Assembly: GCA_019931185.1 (NCBI GenBank)
Contig: JAINDK010000005.1
Coordinates: 1-33,702, forward strand
Length of the DNA: 33,702 nucleotides
Origin: Bryobacter sp. CoA8 C33
GTDB lineage: Bacteria; Acidobacteriota; Terriglobia; Bryobacterales; Bryobacteraceae
Reading direction: 5' to 3'
The notes under the pieces were generated by a model. The model was given only the letters and a program-made list of their open reading frames with translations. It searched no databases and had not been told where the DNA came from. Shown here piece by piece: positions 6,677 to 32,920 of this stretch. Every line of letters starts with the position of its first letter. Position 1 is the stretch's first letter. A program made the position numbers and the translations under genes.

Positions 6677-8275
6677 CGTGAAGTTCACCTCGATCGCCGT
6701 CGCCACCTCCACCGCATTCCCGTTCAGCAGCGTCGTCTGATACCGCCACAGCTTCACGGCGCTCATCGCCGCCTCCCGCAGCCGCGCATCCACAAATTCA
6801 TTCACCGGCTCCAGACTCAACACCGCCCCGTCCTTGCCTATCACCGCATTCAGTAACACCACCCCCGATACCCCCTCCCGCTTGCAGTCCGGCGGGTACA
6901 CCGGGCTCACCTTGCTCACCAGCTTCGCTGCCTGCACATTTCCTCCCACGCGCACCCGCGTCGGCGTCTGCGCCACAAACGTGCCCGGCGGAGGTGGTGG
7001 CGGAGGTGGTGGCGGCACCCCGCCAGTCACGGTCACCCAATCCGGTTCGTGAATCCGCTCTTCGGCACCGCCAGGCGGAGGTGGTGGCGGCACCCCGCCA
7101 TTCACGGTCACTCTCTCCCGCAATCCCCCCACGTTCAGCGTAAACACCAGCGGCACTGCTCCCGCCCCGCCCAGCTTCAGCGAAGTATTGGTCAGCACCG
7201 CAAAACCTTCCTTCTCCACCAGCACCATATACTCGTCTTCCGGCACTGCGGGAAACGCAAACCGTCCCGTCTCGTCCGTCCGCGCCACTTCCACTCTCCC
7301 CTTGCTCGCCGGATTCAAAAACCGCACCGTTACCTTCGCCCCCGGCACATGCGCGCCGCGGGCATCCATCACAACACCTCTCACTCCACTCCCACCCTGT
7401 GCCATCAATCGTAGCGCCCCCACGGGAGCCAGCAGCAGCACGCTCAACGCCATTGCCAACACAGCCGTTCCTCTCGTCAACGGCCCTCTCTCAACCAGCG
7501 GATCGAGAACCGCCCGCAATCTCTTCTCCAGCTTCGATGTCTGTGCCATGGCCAGACCTCCTTTCAGATTTCGTTGCTGTGGCAACGATTTTGCAATCTC
7601 CAGCAAATGCCCGGCATACTCCGCCGCCTCTACCCCTCTTCCCAGCACGCCATCATCACAAGCCTCTTCACAGGCCATCCGCTGTTCCCGCAACGCCACC
7701 CAAGCCAGCGGATTCAACCAGTAAACAGCCCTCGCCACCCTTCCCACCAGTTGCCACCACAAATCCCCCCGCTCCACATGCATCCGTTCATGCGCCATCA
7801 CCGCCTCCAGCCGCCGCTCATCCCAGCCCTCGGCTTCTTCCGGCAACACAATCCGTGGCCGCCACAATCCGCACACCGCCGGCACGCCGATCTCCCCGCT
7901 CATCCATGCATCCTCACGCCAGTGTCGCGCCCGCCGCGCCACTCCCCCACTGGCGCATTGCGCCACCACTTCCCGCCCCGCTAGCATCACGGCCCCGCAC
8001 AGCCAGATTCCCCACCACCAGTCCACGCTCCGCCGGCTCTCTTCGCTTCCTTCCGGGCGCACCACGATCCGCGTCACGCCTGCGTCAATCGGTGAAAACT
8101 CCACCACCCGCGCCCGCTCCGGCCAGAGCGGCAGCAACAGTAGCCATGCCAGTCCCAGCGTCCACACCAGATGCCGCACCGCCGCGCTCGCCCGCCGCAT
8201 TCCCCACGCCACCACCATCGTCATCAGCAGCAGCACTCCGCTCTGTAATCCCAGCGTCGCCATCGCCTCGGTCAT
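6665..8275 (-). CDS. BlaR1/MecR1-type M56 metallopeptidase with carboxypeptidase-regulatory and TonB C-terminal domains
   Basis: This 536-residue inner-membrane sensor protease has hydrophobic segments at about 9-25, 35-52, 88-105 and 268-290. The zinc site is HERMH at 162-166, with the downstream glutamate motif CEEACDD at 202-208. After the last membrane segment comes a carboxypeptidase-regulatory-like beta-sandwich (about 296-382, starting GVRGVVMDARGAHVPGAKV). Two proline runs of 6 and 10 residues follow, then a TonB C-terminal domain at about 445-536 (VSPVYPPDCKREGVSGVV). BlaR-type proteases cleave their cognate BlaI repressor. The usual penicillin-binding sensor domain is absent, so the signal is unknown. 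It overlaps blaI by 4 bases and is its natural partner. Confidence 0.9.
   Translation of the reverse strand: MTEAMATLGLQSGVLLLMTMVVAWGMRRASAAVRHLVWTLGLAWLLLLPLWPERARVVEFSPIDAGVTRIVVRPEGSEESRRSVDWWWGIWLCGAVMLAGREVVAQCASGGVARRARHWREDAWMSGEIGVPAVCGLWRPRIVLPEEAEGWDERRLEAVMAHERMHVERGDLWWQLVGRVARAVYWLNPLAWVALREQRMACEEACDDGVLGRGVEAAEYAGHLLEIAKSLPQQRNLKGGLAMAQTSKLEKRLRAVLDPLVERGPLTRGTAVLAMALSVLLLAPVGALRLMAQGGSGVRGVVMDARGAHVPGAKVTVRFLNPASKGRVEVARTDETGRFAFPAVPEDEYMVLVEKEGFAVLTNTSLKLGGAGAVPLVFTLNVGGLRERVTVNGGVPPPPPPGGAEERIHEPDWVTVTGGVPPPPPPPPPPGTFVAQTPTRVRVGGNVQAAKLVSKVSPVYPPDCKREGVSGVVLLNAVIGKDGAVLSLEPVNEFVDARLREAAMSAVKLWRYQTTLLNGNAVEVATAIEVNFTLLP
7001..7111. repeat. 36-bp direct repeat encoding the proline-rich linker of the M56/TonB protein
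   Basis: Positions 7001-7036 and 7076-7111 are identical except for one base and are spaced 75 bp apart. On the coding (minus) strand they encode TVTGGVPPPPPP and TVNGGVPPPPPP. The element appears to have arisen by internal duplication, and the poly-proline tracts are likely to vary in length by slippage. Confidence 0.85.
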
Positions 8276-27193: not shown

Positions 27194-28579
27194 ATGCGAT
27201 ACGGATTATTGTTCCTGCTGGCAGGTGCGCTGGCTGCTTCCGAGGTGGTGCGGGAGGCGGATGCGAAGGCCTTGAGCGCGATGGTGAGTTTTCTGGCCAG
27301 CGATGTGCTGGAGGGCCGGGATACGCCGTCGATGGGACTGAAGGTGGCCAGCGAGTACATCGCCAGCGAGTTCCGGGCGGTGGGGTTGAAGACGAGTTTT
27401 CAAGAAGCGAAGCTGCGGGTGCGGCGGGTGGAGCGCAAGGGCTTCGCGGTGAGCCTGACGGACGGGCAGCGCAGCCTGAGTCTGCCGGTGGAGAACGCGA
27501 TGTGGACGGCGGGGCCGAAGCTGGACCTCGCCGGAGTGACGGTGGGGCGGGCCAAATTAGATGCAATGCCGGAGAAGGTGGAGCCGGTGATGGTTCTCGA
27601 AGGGCCGATGGGGCCGGGCCTGCGGGGAGCCGTTGAGAAGCTGGCGGGAGGGGGTGCGAAGGTGATCGTGCTGGTGGGGATCGCGATGCCGGTGCCGGCG
27701 CAGGCAGTAGAGTTCGAGGACCAACCGCAGACGGGCTATGTGATGTTGCGGACGACGAATGCGGAAGCCGAGGCAATGTTGAAGGCTGGGGTGGAACTGA
27801 AGGCGAATGTGCATATCGAAGAGGCGGGCGTGACGGTGGAGGCGGCGCGGAACGTGATTGGGGTGCTCGAGGGGAGTGACGAGAAGCTGAAGAGCGAGTA
27901 TGTATTGCTGACGGCGCACTACGACCATTTGGGGATGCGGCCGAACGACGCAGGGGACCGGGTGTACAACGGGGCGAACGATAACGCAAGCGGGGTGGCG
28001 AGCATTATCGAGAGTGCGCGGCTGCTGGCGGGGCTGAAGGTGGCGCCGAAGCGGAGCGTAATGTTCGTGGCGTTCTTTGGCGAGGAGCGGGGACTGTTGG
28101 GGAGCCGGTATTTTGTGCGGAATCCGGTAGCGCCGCTGTGGCAGATGGTGGCGAACCTGAACCTGGAGCAGACGGGGCGAACGGACTCGAGCGAGGGACC
28201 GAACGTGGGGCAGGTCAATTTGACGGGCTATCACTTCACGACGATACACCGGCACATGGAGGCGGCGGGGGAGGCGACCGGGTTGAAGGTGGTGAAGCAT
28301 GAGCGGTTCAGCGACGCTTACTTCATGGCGAGCGACAATGCGGCGCTGGCGGCGGTGGGGGTGCCTTCGACGACGCTGAGCGTGACTTATGCGTTTCCCG
28401 ACTATCACCAGAAGGGGGACGAATGGGAAAAGATCGACTACGCGAACATGGCGAAGGTAACGAGGGGGATCGCGCAGGGGACGTATCTCGCGGCGGAGGC
28501 GGCCGAGCGGGTGAGTTGGAATGAGGCGGAGGACAAGACTAAGGTGTATCGGGAGGCGGCGGCGAAGCTGGTGCAGTAA
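27194..28579 (+). CDS. Secreted M28-family zinc aminopeptidase
   Basis: This 461-residue protein starts with a signal peptide (RYGLLFLLAGALAAS). A region with PA-domain character (about 105-215) lies ahead of the M28 catalytic domain. Zinc-site residues are H242 in TAHYDHLG, D263 in GANDNASGVAS, E297/E298 in FFGEERGLLGS, a glutamate in LNLEQTGR where many relatives have aspartate, and the histidine in FPDYHQKGD. Family members remove N-terminal residues from peptides outside the cytoplasm. The ATG lies 32 bp from the divergent AKR start. The last 41 bases overlap the convergent uvrC. Confidence 0.93.
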   Translation: MRYGLLFLLAGALAASEVVREADAKALSAMVSFLASDVLEGRDTPSMGLKVASEYIASEFRAVGLKTSFQEAKLRVRRVERKGFAVSLTDGQRSLSLPVENAMWTAGPKLDLAGVTVGRAKLDAMPEKVEPVMVLEGPMGPGLRGAVEKLAGGGAKVIVLVGIAMPVPAQAVEFEDQPQTGYVMLRTTNAEAEAMLKAGVELKANVHIEEAGVTVEAARNVIGVLEGSDEKLKSEYVLLTAHYDHLGMRPNDAGDRVYNGANDNASGVASIIESARLLAGLKVAPKRSVMFVAFFGEERGLLGSRYFVRNPVAPLWQMVANLNLEQTGRTDSSEGPNVGQVNLTGYHFTTIHRHMEAAGEATGLKVVKHERFSDAYFMASDNAALAAVGVPSTTLSVTYAFPDYHQKGDEWEKIDYANMAKVTRGIAQGTYLAAEAAERVSWNEAEDKTKVYREAAAKLVQ

Positions 28580-30383
28580 GACCAGGGTGGTAGAAGTCGT
28601 GGACCTTGCGGGCGGCGGCGGGGCCGATGGCGGCTGAGAGGGCCTCGAGGGGGGTTGATTTGACCTGTTCGGGGCTGCCGAATTCGCGGAGGAGTTTGCC
28701 GAGGGTGATCTTGCCGATGCCGGGGATTTGTTCGAGTTCGCTGGTGAGGCGGCTGGCGTTGCGGCGGGTGCGGTGGAAGGTGACGGCGAAGCGGTGGGCT
28801 TCGTCGCGGATGGTTTGGATGAGGTGGAGGACGGGGTTATGGCGCTCGAGGATGGCGGGTTCGTCTTCCTGGCCATAGACGTAGATGATCTCTTCGCGTT
28901 TGGCGATGGAGGCGAGGGGCTGGTTGGTGAGGCCGAGGGCTTCGAGGGCTCCGGCGGCGGCGTGGAGTTGGCCGAGCCCGCCGTCGATGAGGACGAGGCC
29001 GGGAAAAGGTTGGCCTTCCTGCTGGAGGCGGCTATAGCGGCGGGTGACGACCTCGCGCATGGAGGCGAAGTCGTCGTTGCCGGCGACGGTATTGATGATG
29101 AACTTGCGGTAGTCGGATTTCTTCATGCGGCCGTCTTCCCAGACGACCATGGAGGCGACTTTATCGGTGCCCTGAATGTGAGAGATATCGAAGCACTCGA
29201 TGCGGCGGGGGGCTTTCTCGAGGTTGAGGGCATCCTGGAGGGCTTCCTTGATGGCTTCGGAGGAGGGCTTCAAGACGCGGAAGCGCTGCTCGAAACTATG
29301 GCGGGCATTGGTTTCGACGAGGCCGAGCATGGCCTTTTTCTCACCACGCTGGGGAGTATTGATGGTGCATTTGCGGCCGCGCTGTTCGGAGAGAAGTTCC
29401 TCGAGGACATCGCGGTCTTCGAAGTCGATGGGGACGTGGATGAAGGCGGGGATGTGCTGCTGGTTGAGGTAGACTTGGAGGAGGAGTTGCTGGAAGAAGT
29501 CGGGGGCGTGGAAAGCGGGGAGGTCTTCCCAGAAGAACTCGCGGCGGTCGACGATGCGGCCGCGGCGGAGGTGGAAGAGGTTGACGGCAACAAGGGGGGG
29601 CTCGGCGTAGAAGGCGAAGATATCGGTATCGTCGCCTTCGGCGGAGGCGACTTTCTGGCGCTGCTCCATTTCGGTGACGGTGGAGATGAGATCGCGGAGG
29701 CTGGCGGCGCGTTCGAATTCGAGGTTTTCGGCGGCGAGTTGCATGCGGGCTTCGAGGTCGCGGGTGAGGTCTTTTAGTTTGCCCTCGAGGAAGCGGCGGA
29801 CATCATTGACGGAGTGGTGGTAGGTTTCGTTGGAGACGAGGCCGGAGACGCAGGGGCCGTGGCAGCGGTTGATGTGGTATTCGAGACAGGGGTGGGTATG
29901 AGTGCGGTTAAAGTCGACTTTACAGGAGGGGACTTTGAAATTGCGATGGATGAAATTGACGAGGCGGTGGGCGAGGTTGCCGGGGAAGTAAGGGCCGAAG
30001 TAAGTGCCATCCTTACGGAGGCGGCGAGTGACGTAGACGCGGGGGAACTTTTCGTTGGTGAGTTTGATGTAGGGGTAGGTTTTGTCGTCGCGGAGGAGGA
30101 CATTGAAGCGGGGCCGGTGTTGCTTGATCAGGTTGTTTTCGAGGCCGAGAGCTTCTTTTTCGTTGTCGACGAGGATGTAGGAGACGTCACGGGCTTCGTG
30201 GACCATGGCGCCGTTTTTAGCTTCGAGGAGGCGGTCGTCGTTGAAGTAGCTGCGGACGCGGGCGCGGAGGTTTTTCGCTTTGCCGACATAAAGAACGGTG
30301 TTCGAGGCATCGCGCCAGAGGTAGACCCCGGGGCCGGAAGGGAATTGGGAGACCTTTTCGCGTAGGGTATCGAGCCAATTCAT
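28539..30383 (-). CDS. uvrC: Excinuclease ABC subunit C
   Basis: This 614-residue dual-incision endonuclease of nucleotide excision repair has a GIY-YIG nuclease domain at the N-terminus, with GVYLWRD at 19-25 and LYVGKAKNLRARVRSYF at 31-47. The cysteine-rich CLEYHINRCHGPC lies mid-protein. The UVR motif that meets UvrB contains ENLEFERAASLRDLI. The RNase H-like domain has LVLIDGGLGQLHAA, and helix-hairpin-helix repeats sit near the C-terminus (QIPGIGKITLGKLLREFG). I chose ATG 30383, giving MNWLDTLREK. The frame is open 105 bases further upstream, but that part would overlap the divergent gene and is not UvrC-like. No clear ribosome site is seen. Confidence 0.96.
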   Translation of the reverse strand: MNWLDTLREKVSQFPSGPGVYLWRDASNTVLYVGKAKNLRARVRSYFNDDRLLEAKNGAMVHEARDVSYILVDNEKEALGLENNLIKQHRPRFNVLLRDDKTYPYIKLTNEKFPRVYVTRRLRKDGTYFGPYFPGNLAHRLVNFIHRNFKVPSCKVDFNRTHTHPCLEYHINRCHGPCVSGLVSNETYHHSVNDVRRFLEGKLKDLTRDLEARMQLAAENLEFERAASLRDLISTVTEMEQRQKVASAEGDDTDIFAFYAEPPLVAVNLFHLRRGRIVDRREFFWEDLPAFHAPDFFQQLLLQVYLNQQHIPAFIHVPIDFEDRDVLEELLSEQRGRKCTINTPQRGEKKAMLGLVETNARHSFEQRFRVLKPSSEAIKEALQDALNLEKAPRRIECFDISHIQGTDKVASMVVWEDGRMKKSDYRKFIINTVAGNDDFASMREVVTRRYSRLQQEGQPFPGLVLIDGGLGQLHAAAGALEALGLTNQPLASIAKREEIIYVYGQEDEPAILERHNPVLHLIQTIRDEAHRFAVTFHRTRRNASRLTSELEQIPGIGKITLGKLLREFGSPEQVKSTPLEALSAAIGPAAARKVHDFYHPGLTAPASPPPPDTP

Positions 30384-30392
30384 GGGGGGACT

Positions 30393-30405
30393 ACAATTTA
30401 ATTGT
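30393..30405. promoter_or_regulatory. ACAATT-T-AATTGT dyad between uvrC and the TPR gene
   Basis: A perfect 13-bp dyad lies within the 20-bp gap between the divergent starts of uvrC and the TPR protein, reaching into the latter's GTG. It is one of few AT-rich spots in the region. It could be an operator or simply overlapping promoter -10 elements. Confidence 0.4.
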
Positions 30406-30817
30406 GGCATGGCACAGGGTATTGGCTTTGTTTTGTAGCGTTCTGGCGGCGCAGGTAAAGCCGCCGGAGCCGGCGGTGGAGGAGCCACCGGAAGAGGATG
30501 AACTGCTCGTCCGGGAAAAGAAGGAGTATGAGTTCAACCCGTTGCAGGCGCAGCAGGAGGTGAAGGTAGGCCGCTTTTATATGAAGCGGGGGAGCTGGAA
30601 GGCGGCGGCGGGCCGATTTCTGGAGGCGACGCTCTGGGACCCGACGAGCGCGGAGGCTTTCTACGAGTTGGGGAAAGCGCGGGAGAAATCGGGCAACCAA
30701 AAGGGGATGCGCGAGGCCTGGTTAAAGTTTTTGGAATTGGCGCCGGAGGACAAGCGGGCGGCGGAAGTCAAGAAGAAGCTCGCCGCCGGGCGGAGTGTTG
30801 GGCGATCGCCCGAATAA
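30404..30817 (+). CDS. Exported TPR-containing protein of unknown function
   Basis: This 137-residue frame starts at GTG 30404. The N-terminus WHRVLALFCSVLAAQ looks like a signal or lipoprotein peptide. An acidic-proline stretch follows (about 20-36), then two TPR-like helix pairs at about 48-122. These include FYMKRGSWKAAAGRFLEAT and FYELGKAREKSGN, with the usual alanine, glycine and tyrosine spacing. TPR proteins of this kind act as scaffolds, and BamD-like lipoproteins share the opening pattern, but this one is much shorter. It diverges from uvrC by 20 bp. Its 3' end overlaps the TIR gene by 50 bases. Confidence 0.75.
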   Translation: MAWHRVLALFCSVLAAQVKPPEPAVEEPPEEDELLVREKKEYEFNPLQAQQEVKVGRFYMKRGSWKAAAGRFLEATLWDPTSAEAFYELGKAREKSGNQKGMREAWLKFLELAPEDKRAAEVKKKLAAGRSVGRSPE

Positions 30818-31343
30818 CGCGATCGATACCAGCGGGAGAATCGGGGAAGAGATCGATGTACTGGATCTCGCCGCGGATGCGGGCGGGGACACGGCAATCA
30901 TCAAAACGGATGGGAATGAGAAAGGTGTCCTCGAGAGGGAGCCTGCGGGCGATGTCGAGGGCATAGCGAATCTCGGCCTGGAAGCCACCGCGTTTATTGA
31001 CGGAATTGGTGGACAGGCAGGCGATGAAGAAATCGCTGGCTTCGATGGCGGCCTCGATGAGGCGGGGCCAATTCTGGCCGGCTTTGAGATTGCGGCGGTC
31101 CATCCAGGGGTTGAACCCGGCGGCGGAGAGGGCGTCGTAGAGATTTTCGGCGAGGGCGGCGTCTTCGGTAGCGTAGCTGATGAAGACACGAGGGGCGTCG
31201 AGGGCGATGAAGCGGAAGCCACCATCGGGGGAGGGATGGAAGGTACCGAAGCCTTCGATCTCGACGGGTTTGCCCTGGCGGAGACAGTCATGGATGATGG
31301 CGGCGACCTGTTTTGGGTCGAAGCGGGAGTGATGGAGGGGCAT
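30768..31343 (-). CDS. TIR-domain protein with an HU-like N-terminal segment
   Basis: This 191-residue protein has a bacterial TIR domain at about 51-180. The domain opens with PRVFISYATEDAALAENLYD (BB-loop side) and continues with LKAGQNWPRLIEAAIEASDF. STNSVNKRGGFQAEIRYALD follows, where E124 is the likely catalytic glutamate of NAD-cleaving TIRs. The first 46 residues are not TIR: KQVAAIIHDCLRQGKPVEIE followed by GFGTFHP resembles helix 2 and the first beta strands of HU/IHF proteins, without helix 1 or the DNA-binding arm. The gene overlaps the upstream HU-like gene by one base and is probably co-translated. TIR proteins in bacteria often act in phage defence or signalling; that role is inferred here. 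Confidence 0.88.
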   Translation of the reverse strand: MPLHHSRFDPKQVAAIIHDCLRQGKPVEIEGFGTFHPSPDGGFRFIALDAPRVFISYATEDAALAENLYDALSAAGFNPWMDRRNLKAGQNWPRLIEAAIEASDFFIACLSTNSVNKRGGFQAEIRYALDIARRLPLEDTFLIPIRFDDCRVPARIRGEIQYIDLFPDSPAGIDRVIRAIAQHSARRRASS

Positions 31344-31549
31344 CAGGCAGCCTCTTTTTGGGCGGACTTGCGATTGGGCGGCTGGGCACCGGCGCGGGAG
31401 AAGATGCCGAGGCCGGGCCAGTCGGTGATTTCGCCATGTTTCCAGCGTTTGAGGATGGCGAGAATCGTCTGGTCAAGGTAGTCGGCGGCCTCCGTGGAGG
31501 AGGTATGAGTGGCGCGGGCGAGGCGGCGGGCGAGATCGGTTTTATTCAT
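31343..31549 (-). CDS. Short HU/IHF-like protein lacking the DNA-binding arm
   Basis: This 68-residue protein starts MNKTDLARRLARATHTSSTE, matching the N-terminal helix of HU/IHF (MNKTELI...). A second helix follows (EAADYLDQTILAILKRWKHG), then WPGLGIFSRA in place of the usual PGFGTF hairpin. It ends where HU would begin its beta-arm. The RNP motif is missing and the tail is basic (NRKSAQKEAA). About 90 residues is usual for HU, so this is a truncated or specialised form. It lies between the STGP-motif protein (8-base overlap) and the HU-TIR gene (1-base overlap), indicating one coupled operon. Confidence 0.78.
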   Translation of the reverse strand: MNKTDLARRLARATHTSSTEAADYLDQTILAILKRWKHGEITDWPGLGIFSRAGAQPPNRKSAQKEAA

Positions 31550-32189
31550 GGCGGCGCAGCTCCGGAGAGGAGTTCATGAGGCGGTCGGCTTGTTCGAAGG
31601 CATGGAGGCGGTGCTGGCCGAGGTAGGCGAGGCGGAGGGCGGCATCTTTAGCGGGGACGCGATAGGACTCGGGGGCGAGCAAGCGGGAGATAGGGGCCGA
31701 GGAGGGGAGGACGACCGGGGAGTTGAGTTCGTGGGTAACGATGTCCTGGAGGTCGACGGCGGCGCAGCGGTCGGCGTAGGCTTGCTGGAAGGCGGCGGTG
31801 GTTTCGCGGGCGGAGCGTTCGAGGCCGCGCATGTAGCGCTGGATGCGGGTGAGCTGGGCAAAGACGGCGGGGTCATCCTGCTGGCGGAGGGTGTTTTCGA
31901 GCGCGGTGATGTGGAGCGCTTCGGCGCGGAGCAGGAGGAAGCGGGCGAAGGCCATTTGCTCGAAGAGGTGGAGTTCATGGGCCGAGGCGGGTTGGAAGTC
32001 GGCGAGGAGTTCTTCGCGGAAGCTGAGGTAGGCATCCTGAACGTGAGCGGGAAACTGGTCGATGGAATTGGCGGTGAGGCCGTGGCGGAGAGCGTTGCGG
32101 CTGACGGTGAGTTTACCGGCCGGGGATTTTGGACCGGTGGAAGCCTGGGCATTTTGGCGGTTGGCTTCGATCTGATTTTGGCTGGCCAT
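31542..32189 (-). CDS. Conserved protein of unknown function with STGPKSPAGK...NALRHGL motif
   Basis: This 215-residue soluble protein carries an N-terminal block, ANRQNAQASTGPKSPAGK (9-26), followed by SRNALRHGL (30-38). I recognise this as a recurrent motif in Acidobacteriota and Planctomycetes hypothetical proteins whose function is not established. The remainder is mostly helical (QDAYLSFREELLADF, HELHLFEQMAFARFLLLRAE, RIQRYMRGLERSARETTAAF), consistent with a coiled or bundled structure. On the minus strand GGAG lies about 8 bases before the ATG. It is first in a likely three-gene operon with the HU-like and HU-TIR genes. Confidence 0.8.
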   Translation of the reverse strand: MASQNQIEANRQNAQASTGPKSPAGKLTVSRNALRHGLTANSIDQFPAHVQDAYLSFREELLADFQPASAHELHLFEQMAFARFLLLRAEALHITALENTLRQQDDPAVFAQLTRIQRYMRGLERSARETTAAFQQAYADRCAAVDLQDIVTHELNSPVVLPSSAPISRLLAPESYRVPAKDAALRLAYLGQHRLHAFEQADRLMNSSPELRRHE

Positions 32190-32431
32190 GATGGGCTCCG
32201 GGACAAAGGGATTTGAGTGGGAGGGATGGGATCGCCTCCGAGGAAACGCTAGCAGAGGGAGAGAGCGGAGGGAGGGGGTGCGAGGAGGGAGGATGAATGG
32301 AATGAAGGGGCTAGGGGGTAAAAATAAATTTCAATTTGCTGTGAAAAAAGTCGGAAGTGAGTGCAGCATGGAGAGGGAGGGAATTGGAAAGTATGCCGGG
32401 GAGGAGAGACGGCTGGCGGGAGGGGAGCGCG
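32190..32431. other. Divergent intergenic region between the HU/TIR operon and the nuclease gene
   Basis: This 242-bp stretch separates the minus-strand STGP gene from the nuclease. It contains a G-rich part (32215-32320) and an AT-rich part (32318-32350) likely to hold the nuclease promoter. I could not assign -35/-10 boxes with confidence and see no strong dyad. Confidence 0.4.
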
Positions 32432-32920
32432 ATGAGGGCACTGGTATGGAGTTGTGTACTGAGCCTGATGCTGGCCGGCGTGGCGGCGGGGGAGGAATTT
32501 TCCGGGCGCGTGGTGGGCGTTACGGATGGTGACACGATTACGGTACTGGCCGGGCGGGAGCAGCGGAAGGTGCGGCTGGCGGGAGTGGATGCGCCGGAGC
32601 GGGGGCAGGCATTTGGCCAGCGGGCCAAGCAAGCGTTGGGTCTGATGGTATTTGGGCGGGAGGTGAGGGTGGTGAGCACGGGGCGGGACCGGTATGAGAG
32701 GACGCTGGGGATTGTGCGGCTGGCGGACGGGAGTTCGGTGAATGAGCGGATGGTGGAGAACGGGTGGGCGTGGCACTATGTGAAGTATTCGAAGGACGGG
32801 CGGCTGGGGGAGTTGGAGGCGAGGGCACGGGCGGCGCGGCGGGGACTGTGGGCGGATGCGGATCCGGTGGCGCCGTGGGAATTTCGGGCGAGCGGACGGA
32901 GGAGGGGGCTGGAGGAGTAA
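32432..32920 (+). CDS. Secreted thermonuclease-like (SNase) nuclease
   Basis: This 162-residue staphylococcal-nuclease-fold protein has a signal peptide (LVWSCVLSLMLAGVAAG). Active-site residues align with the family: D32 in VTDGDTITV, R48 in VRLAGVDAPE, D53, E56, and R90 in DRYERTLGIV. Members hydrolyse DNA and RNA with calcium. The C-terminal WADADPVAPWEFR motif is also typical. ATG 32432 follows a GGAGGGGA ribosome site and is preferred to an in-frame start 75 bases upstream, which would mask the signal peptide. It is probably transcribed from the AT-richer leader at 32310-32360. Confidence 0.92.
   Translation: MRALVWSCVLSLMLAGVAAGEEFSGRVVGVTDGDTITVLAGREQRKVRLAGVDAPERGQAFGQRAKQALGLMVFGREVRVVSTGRDRYERTLGIVRLADGSSVNERMVENGWAWHYVKYSKDGRLGELEARARAARRGLWADADPVAPWEFRASGRRRGLEE

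Follow-up and report, generated by a model that had tools for sequence, protein, structure and literature searches.

The window analysed here is a 33,702-nucleotide stretch of Bryobacter sp. CoA8 C33, the entire contig C10 (JAINDK010000005.1) of a 5.05-Mb genome that is 98% complete. Near one end it carries a conserved two-gene module on the minus strand, consisting of a gene for a 68-residue HU-like protein (31343-31549) followed by a gene for a 191-residue protein, HU-TIR (30768-31343), in which about half of an HU fold precedes a TIR domain. Our tentative reading, which we put at somewhat less than an even chance, is that this pair is a vertically inherited trait of one acidobacterial family, and that its products form a heteromer with a TIR that consumes nicotinamide adenine dinucleotide (NAD) and serves as a cell-intrinsic switch. 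The original prediction for this DNA had proposed a three-gene unit, with a gene for an STGP-motif protein upstream of the pair. Its three open reading frames, their coordinates, their overlaps of 1 base (HU-TIR with HU-like, at 31343) and 8 bases (HU-like with STGP, 31542-31549), and the Glu at residue 124 of HU-TIR are all as it described. The conserved unit is the pair.

To assess the pairing, we compared the window with 80 further loci in named genome records; these are the best 80 among 170 relatives. A single-sequence search finds the HU-like gene beside HU-TIR in 76 of these 81 loci. By profile, it precedes HU-TIR in 80 of 81, where 71 of the 80 are themselves rows of the profile and the one exception is cut by a contig end. 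Eleven loci were examined because the single-sequence search or the start call had not succeeded there; all of them, including two from one and the same genome sequence, have an HU-like gene. The two frames overlap in 65/74 loci, most commonly by 8, 4, 11 or 14 bases. The rule behind this count favours overlap, as it looks for a start codon from 25 bases ahead of the upstream stop onwards and accepts the first. The same gene order is seen in distant relatives, which for the pair rules out chance overlap of frames in GC-rich DNA. The HU-like and HU-TIR genes are a real co-conserved pair. Searches of PADLOC, NCBIfam and open-licence papers found no named system with this arrangement, and the original prediction likewise knew of none. 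In genome G081, the HU-like and HU-TIR genes lie on different contigs.

The 68-residue protein has helix 1, helix 2 and the first short beta hairpin of HU, followed by a tail. It matches the Pfam family Bac_DNA_binding (PF00216) with E = 1.5e-4 and 22.4 bits, which is exactly the gathering score. A family profile built from 71 rows matches solved HU at E = 3e-10, and the alignment spans residues 1-57 and ends where the HU arm starts. Since the family profile reaches solved HU at this level, the assignment of the protein to the HU/IHF family by sequence homology is firm, and the suggestion of an arm-less HU-like protein is borne out. The beta arms and helix 3 of HU/IHF proteins are absent, and a median length of 69 residues leaves no room for them. 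The DNA-bending arms of canonical HU are missing from HU-TIR as well, which also lacks helix 1. Similarity to the CCDC81-type prokaryotic HU domains (PF18175) is weak, at 14.7 and 11.6 bits against a gathering score of 35 bits. The HU-like proteins are mostly basic, with a median net charge of +7 and a lowest value of -1; the window copy has +4.

HU-TIR matches Pfam TIR_2 over residues 53-176 (E = 2.1e-30, above the curated cut-off). Upstream of this domain, residues 13-37 give HU-like Pfam matches that are all sub-threshold. When the first 50 residues are compared with the HU-like profile, hhalign returns a score of 50.3, and 100 column-shuffled controls score 18.8 or less. The N-terminus aligns with the end of HU helix 2 and the hairpin. 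Because residues 1-50 match the HU-like profile, we assign the N-terminal part as about half an HU fold from which helix 1 is missing. A structure model of HU-TIR (mean predicted local distance difference test score, pLDDT, 87.6) predicts one helix and three short strands, with the half HU fold at residues 10-47, and then a TIR fold. The fold search covers the TIR part, and the HU half rests on the sequence profiles. By profile and by fold search, the nearest solved structures to this TIR are SPARTA TIR-APAZ chains and SARM1.

Eight residues (E124, W80, D82, G89, Q90, W92, S111 and F121) are invariant in 80/80 HU-TIR sequences, and E124 is also invariant in an overlapping set of 68/68. The candidate catalytic glutamate named in the original prediction is therefore present and conserved throughout both sets, and it lies in the alpha-C region, where a TIR NADase has its putative catalytic Glu. 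In the profile alignment, E124 is paired with residue 77 of the TIR-APAZ chain of Crt. One report (PMC10474274) gives E77A, in its own numbering, as the catalytic mutant of a TIR-APAZ/Ago complex. The TIR domain of HU-TIR is probably enzymatically active and NAD-consuming, judging from these residues.

The pair differs from each of the described TIR systems compared. SPARTA has APAZ fused to its TIR and an adjacent short Argonaute, whereas HU-TIR has 191 residues and no APAZ, and no Argonaute was found among the window proteins scanned. The SPARTA model of PADLOC matches HU-TIR over its TIR part only, at positions 5-135 of 430. Here, in contrast, half an HU fold is what the TIR is fused to, an HU-like protein is its partner, and the pair occurs widely across one family. 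Thoeris resembles the pair in that its TIR protein is small and is encoded beside a partner, and HU-TIR gives weak matches to ThsB models in PADLOC. No ThsA was found, however, among 10 window proteins or the trio (both by PADLOC) or among the recurrent neighbours, in line with the earlier statement that no ThsA-like partner is present. SARM1 and AbTir carry an ARM/SAM or coiled-coil regulator that is lacking from HU-TIR, and they also differ from it in that 52/80 HU-TIR sequences have Gly four residues before the Glu.

We next consider how the pair is distributed. Full-length HU-TIR matches, defined as starting at or before query residue 21 and ending at or after residue 153, occur among the matches listed in 115/150 genomes of the family, and fragments occur in 6 more. 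Each of the 115 has one full-length HU-TIR among these matches, the further ones listed being the TIR domain or fragments. All 94 family genomes with an HU-like match carry HU-TIR or a fragment of it. Class and phylum samples were searched with the best 13 candidates per genome scored. A class sample of 250 genomes, at least 54 of them from the family, gives 46 full-length matches among those listed, of which 45 are in the family. Outside the family, among at most 196 other class genomes, the pair is present in one, G169, which has 4% contamination. In a phylum sample of 247 genomes, full-length HU-TIR is found in two genomes, both of the family, and the other listed matches are to the TIR domain. 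A pattern-based search of viral contigs gave no HU-TIR match, and neither did phage records. Among plasmids, 28 match HU-TIR, none over 80% of the query, and the matches listed are mostly to the TIR. A mobile-element origin of the pair was rejected on the absence of viral or phage copies and of full-length plasmid matches. The nearest named relatives of the window are Bryobacter, and the family-level names among the records are Bryobacteraceae or Solibacteraceae, three records labelled from other phyla excepted; from these names, the family carrying the pair is probably Bryobacteraceae/Solibacteraceae.

Two further observations concern individual records. The HU-TIR sequences of L157 (Nevskia soli), L167 (Arcobacter) and L188 (Acidimicrobiia) fall among acidobacterial sequences in the tree, and these records are probably mislabelled or mixed bins. 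In two genomes of the same genus as the window, G055 (C3:25768-26329) and G146 (C501:2862-3351), HU-TIR is split over frames, perhaps through decay or an error of assembly; the 115 full-length genomes include G055.

Pairwise distances of HU-TIR, HU-like and UvrC proteins from the 21 loci at which all three were usable are correlated (Spearman 0.62, 0.52 and 0.47), and 0/500 permutations gave values as high. Within 2.5 kb downstream, at 76 testable loci, a convergent TPR gene is present in 32 and uvrC in 30. One or other of these genes lies within 7 kb at 33/73 loci, and this context is clustered on the HU-TIR tree, with 8 changes where shuffling gives 24 on average. Because of this clustering, uvrC adjacency alone is no evidence for a shared function, and a functional link between the pair and UvrC was rejected, the adjacency being explained by descent. 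A second recurrent context lies upstream, where a gene read from its sequence as an Rrf2-like regulator is found in 20/81 loci and a cysteine-synthase-like gene in 15/81.

For the contexts without uvrC, we picked 16 loci and scanned the largest-scoring downstream open reading frame of 10 and the upstream one of 10. The neighbours include an ABC transporter, a glycosidase, an amidohydrolase, a secretin, a permease, an outer-membrane barrel, a carbohydrate kinase and a pyridoxal phosphate enzyme, among others. For the 10 downstream neighbours, PADLOC gave two generic matches (ABC-ATPase and beta-galactosidase); in its scan of 10 proteins of the window, a single nuclease domain was matched. The original prediction had looked to enrichment near defence islands; the neighbours examined are instead ordinary chromosomal genes, and the setting of the pair is not a defence island as far as examined.

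We propose the following working model for the pair. The small HU-like protein would assemble with the N-terminal half-HU of HU-TIR, and the assembly may sit on nucleic acid through its basic tails. A heteromer is the likeliest arrangement because the proteins share HU half-folds, their genes overlap and their pairing is constant. The TIR of the TIR-APAZ/Ago complex is described in PMC10474274 as being switched on by assembly. As TIRs can be switched in this way, we infer that assembly of the HU parts could set the spacing of the TIR domains and so control NAD consumption. When triggered, the TIRs would use the Glu124 pocket and the BB-loop region to consume NAD+ or to make an NAD-derived signal. 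Such a device would act within the cell as a switch for stress, growth arrest or immunity. The occurrence of the pair in some four fifths of family genomes argues for a constant function of the cell, or an immune switch resident in it, rather than a mobile defence cassette.

The pair also has wider significance. Bacterial TIR proteins are best known as defence effectors with a patchy distribution. Here a TIR gene is widespread, with one full-length copy per genome, and keeps an HU-like partner throughout an acidobacterial family. This suggests that TIR chemistry has a resident role in these cells, and that an HU-type dimer fold may be a new means of gating a TIR. The small size of the pair makes direct in vitro work feasible.

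Several observations weigh against the proposed heteromeric switch. Among the matches listed, 29/150 family genomes, some of them incomplete, have no trace of HU-TIR. G104, a genome of the same genus in four contigs and 98% complete, has neither gene of the pair. Its locus (L244:720-1560, contig C3) consists of a gene for a small peptide (described below), a short spacer, a TPR gene and uvrC, with the pair cleanly absent. Since the pair is cleanly missing from a near-complete genome of the same genus, it is dispensable. The structure model of the HU-like protein alone is poor (mean pLDDT 66), and the HU-like partners in L087, L088 and L089 lack the PGLG hairpin. The invariance of Glu124 is to be read with the make-up of the 68- and 80-sequence sets, which have many genomes in common; the larger omits the overlong row L114, the smaller omits one short row and skips low-scoring fragments, and the Glu is part of one of the three search patterns from which the 80 sequences came. 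SARM1-type TIRs have an aromatic residue four positions before the catalytic Glu, and this residue is absent from HU-TIR, where position 120 is Gly in 52/80; the Crt SPARTA chain likewise has Gly four residues ahead of its Glu. Finally, the UvrC copies used for the distance comparison come from the same loci as the pair, so that joint transfer of the whole region is possible.

The strongest alternative, which follows the defence hypothesis of the original prediction, is that the pair is an anti-phage abortive infection system. In it, invading DNA or its structure would be sensed by the HU-like part, which would then switch on a TIR that depletes NAD+. We consider this possible but rather unlikely. 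The TIR is nearest to defence TIRs, both in PADLOC (Aga_TIR-PNTD, E = 2.9e-21) and among the SPARTA chains in the PDB, and an invariant Glu124 fits a TIR of this kind. The clean loss of the pair in G104 is also consistent with a defence function, as is the single copy outside the family but within the same class, for which transfer or contamination could account. Defence modules are usually patchy and mobile, however, and the pair shows neither the patchy distribution nor the defence-island or mobile context of a mobile anti-phage module, the G104 loss and the G169 copy being the observations on the other side. The defence reading is weakened by the presence of the pair in some four fifths of one family's sampled genomes, by ordinary neighbours where these were examined, with PADLOC matches that are generic apart from the single nuclease domain in the window, and by the lack of any viral, phage or full-length plasmid copy.

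The remaining alternatives involve the region upstream of the pair, where many loci carry a divergent gene for a small peptide. This gene lies beside the pair in 46/77 loci with enough upstream sequence (the 77 include the window and L210), and the same scan applied to 272 control stretches elsewhere in the loci found 0. Examples are located in L125, upstream of position 7775, and at L210:2897-3073. The peptides have 43-85 residues, with a start that resembles an export signal, from which export is predicted, and a lysine-rich body. At 14 of the 46 loci, the gene is present in two or three copies. On the HU-TIR tree, its presence is clustered, with 10 changes where shuffling gives 23.9 on average. 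A pattern for the peptide start gives 26 matches in 18/24 genomes, all at element places (see below) of the pair locus, and this pattern overlooks diverged copies, since six genomes are unmatched and four of these have a peptide gene by open reading frame scan. The nearest peptide relative in the window genome, with 79% identity, opens a separate contig (G000:C125:885-1025), and the best relative in G146 is likewise on a different contig from the pair. Weak relatives elsewhere in the genus have 45-50% identity, with E values of 0.002-0.01 and worse.

In front of the peptide gene is a 38-base operator-like element, ATGAA-N6-CTTAA-N6-ATTAAAAT-N3-TTCAT. Dyad counts in 67 loci detect it in 28, against at most 6 in 10 shuffles, and a looser pattern finds it upstream of the HU-like gene in 39/70 loci, about 137 bases ahead of the start in L125. 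With two mismatches allowed, one copy is present at the pair locus in 20/20 genomes tested, which were chosen for having the element there. Five of the 20 have second copies 380-740 bases away, two have one diverged copy each elsewhere, and a reversed control pattern has no match in any of them. The window genome has no match to the element at three mismatches. The extra copies sit ahead of extra peptide genes, and G104 retains the peptide gene and a recognisable element without the pair. For these two reasons we assign the element to the peptide gene, which it most likely serves, and an SOS-like or autoregulatory operator of the pair was rejected.

A second alternative is that the TIR is a non-enzymatic scaffold within an HU-like/HU-TIR nucleoid-associated or regulatory complex, which might, for example, control neighbouring genes. 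The HU homology of the 68-residue protein agrees with such a role, as do the basic character of the HU-like proteins and the C-terminal tails of HU-TIR, which are positively charged in 77/80 sequences. So too does the occurrence of a conserved operator-like element in the same intergenic region of many relatives. The pair need not act on this element, however, given that the element persists in recognisable form without the pair and recurs ahead of extra peptide genes. A scaffold also has no need of an invariant Glu124 and its conserved surrounding residues, and we regard this alternative as unlikely.

An elaborated form of the switch, in which a chromosomal, vertically inherited heteromer fires its TIR upon nucleoid damage or foreign DNA and is tied to the peptide gene with its locus-specific operator, seems to us decidedly unlikely. 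Least probable of all is a module in which the exported peptide and the HU/HU-TIR proteins act together: the peptide gene does adjoin the pair in over half of the loci, including the out-of-family copy, and in none of the controls, and its start-pattern matches all lie at the pair locus, but 31/77 loci have no peptide gene nearby, the start pattern misses diverged copies, G104 has the peptide without the pair, the best relatives in the window genome and G146 are on other contigs with weak relatives elsewhere in the genus, and clustered presence is also expected from shared synteny.

The STGP-motif gene (31542-32189, minus strand, 215 residues) is a lineage-specific neighbour outside the conserved pair. 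It lies within 1.5 kb upstream in 4/72 loci with enough upstream sequence, namely the window, L111, L112 and L114, and was ruled out as a general third component on this count. The trio is thus not co-conserved, and the three-gene module of the original prediction does not stand. L113, a fifth close relative, has no upstream STGP gene, so that within the genus the gene is directly upstream in 4/5 compared loci, the window included. The overlapping arrangement is found again in the closest relatives only. The copies at the other three loci are 56-64% identical to that of the window, and the protein has no Pfam match above threshold. The window genome contains six further STGP-like stretches, two of them weak, on contigs C13, C67, C65, C82, C99 and C14, and one HU-TIR.

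The remaining genes around the pair are as follows. A gene for a TPR-repeat protein (30404-30817, plus strand) is convergent with HU-TIR and overlaps its 3' end by 50 bases; its Pfam TPR matches are weak and under the cut-offs. Downstream lies uvrC (28539-30488, minus strand), named from its sequence. A small staphylococcal-nuclease-like gene (32357-32920), divergent from the STGP gene, has a start that reads as a signal peptide, and it has no tblastn match in L111-L114, the four closest named relatives, or in other named loci. The contig ends 1.5 kb upstream of the STGP gene. Elsewhere, the window carries a cluster of cell-division and peptidoglycan genes, whose names were read from their translations.
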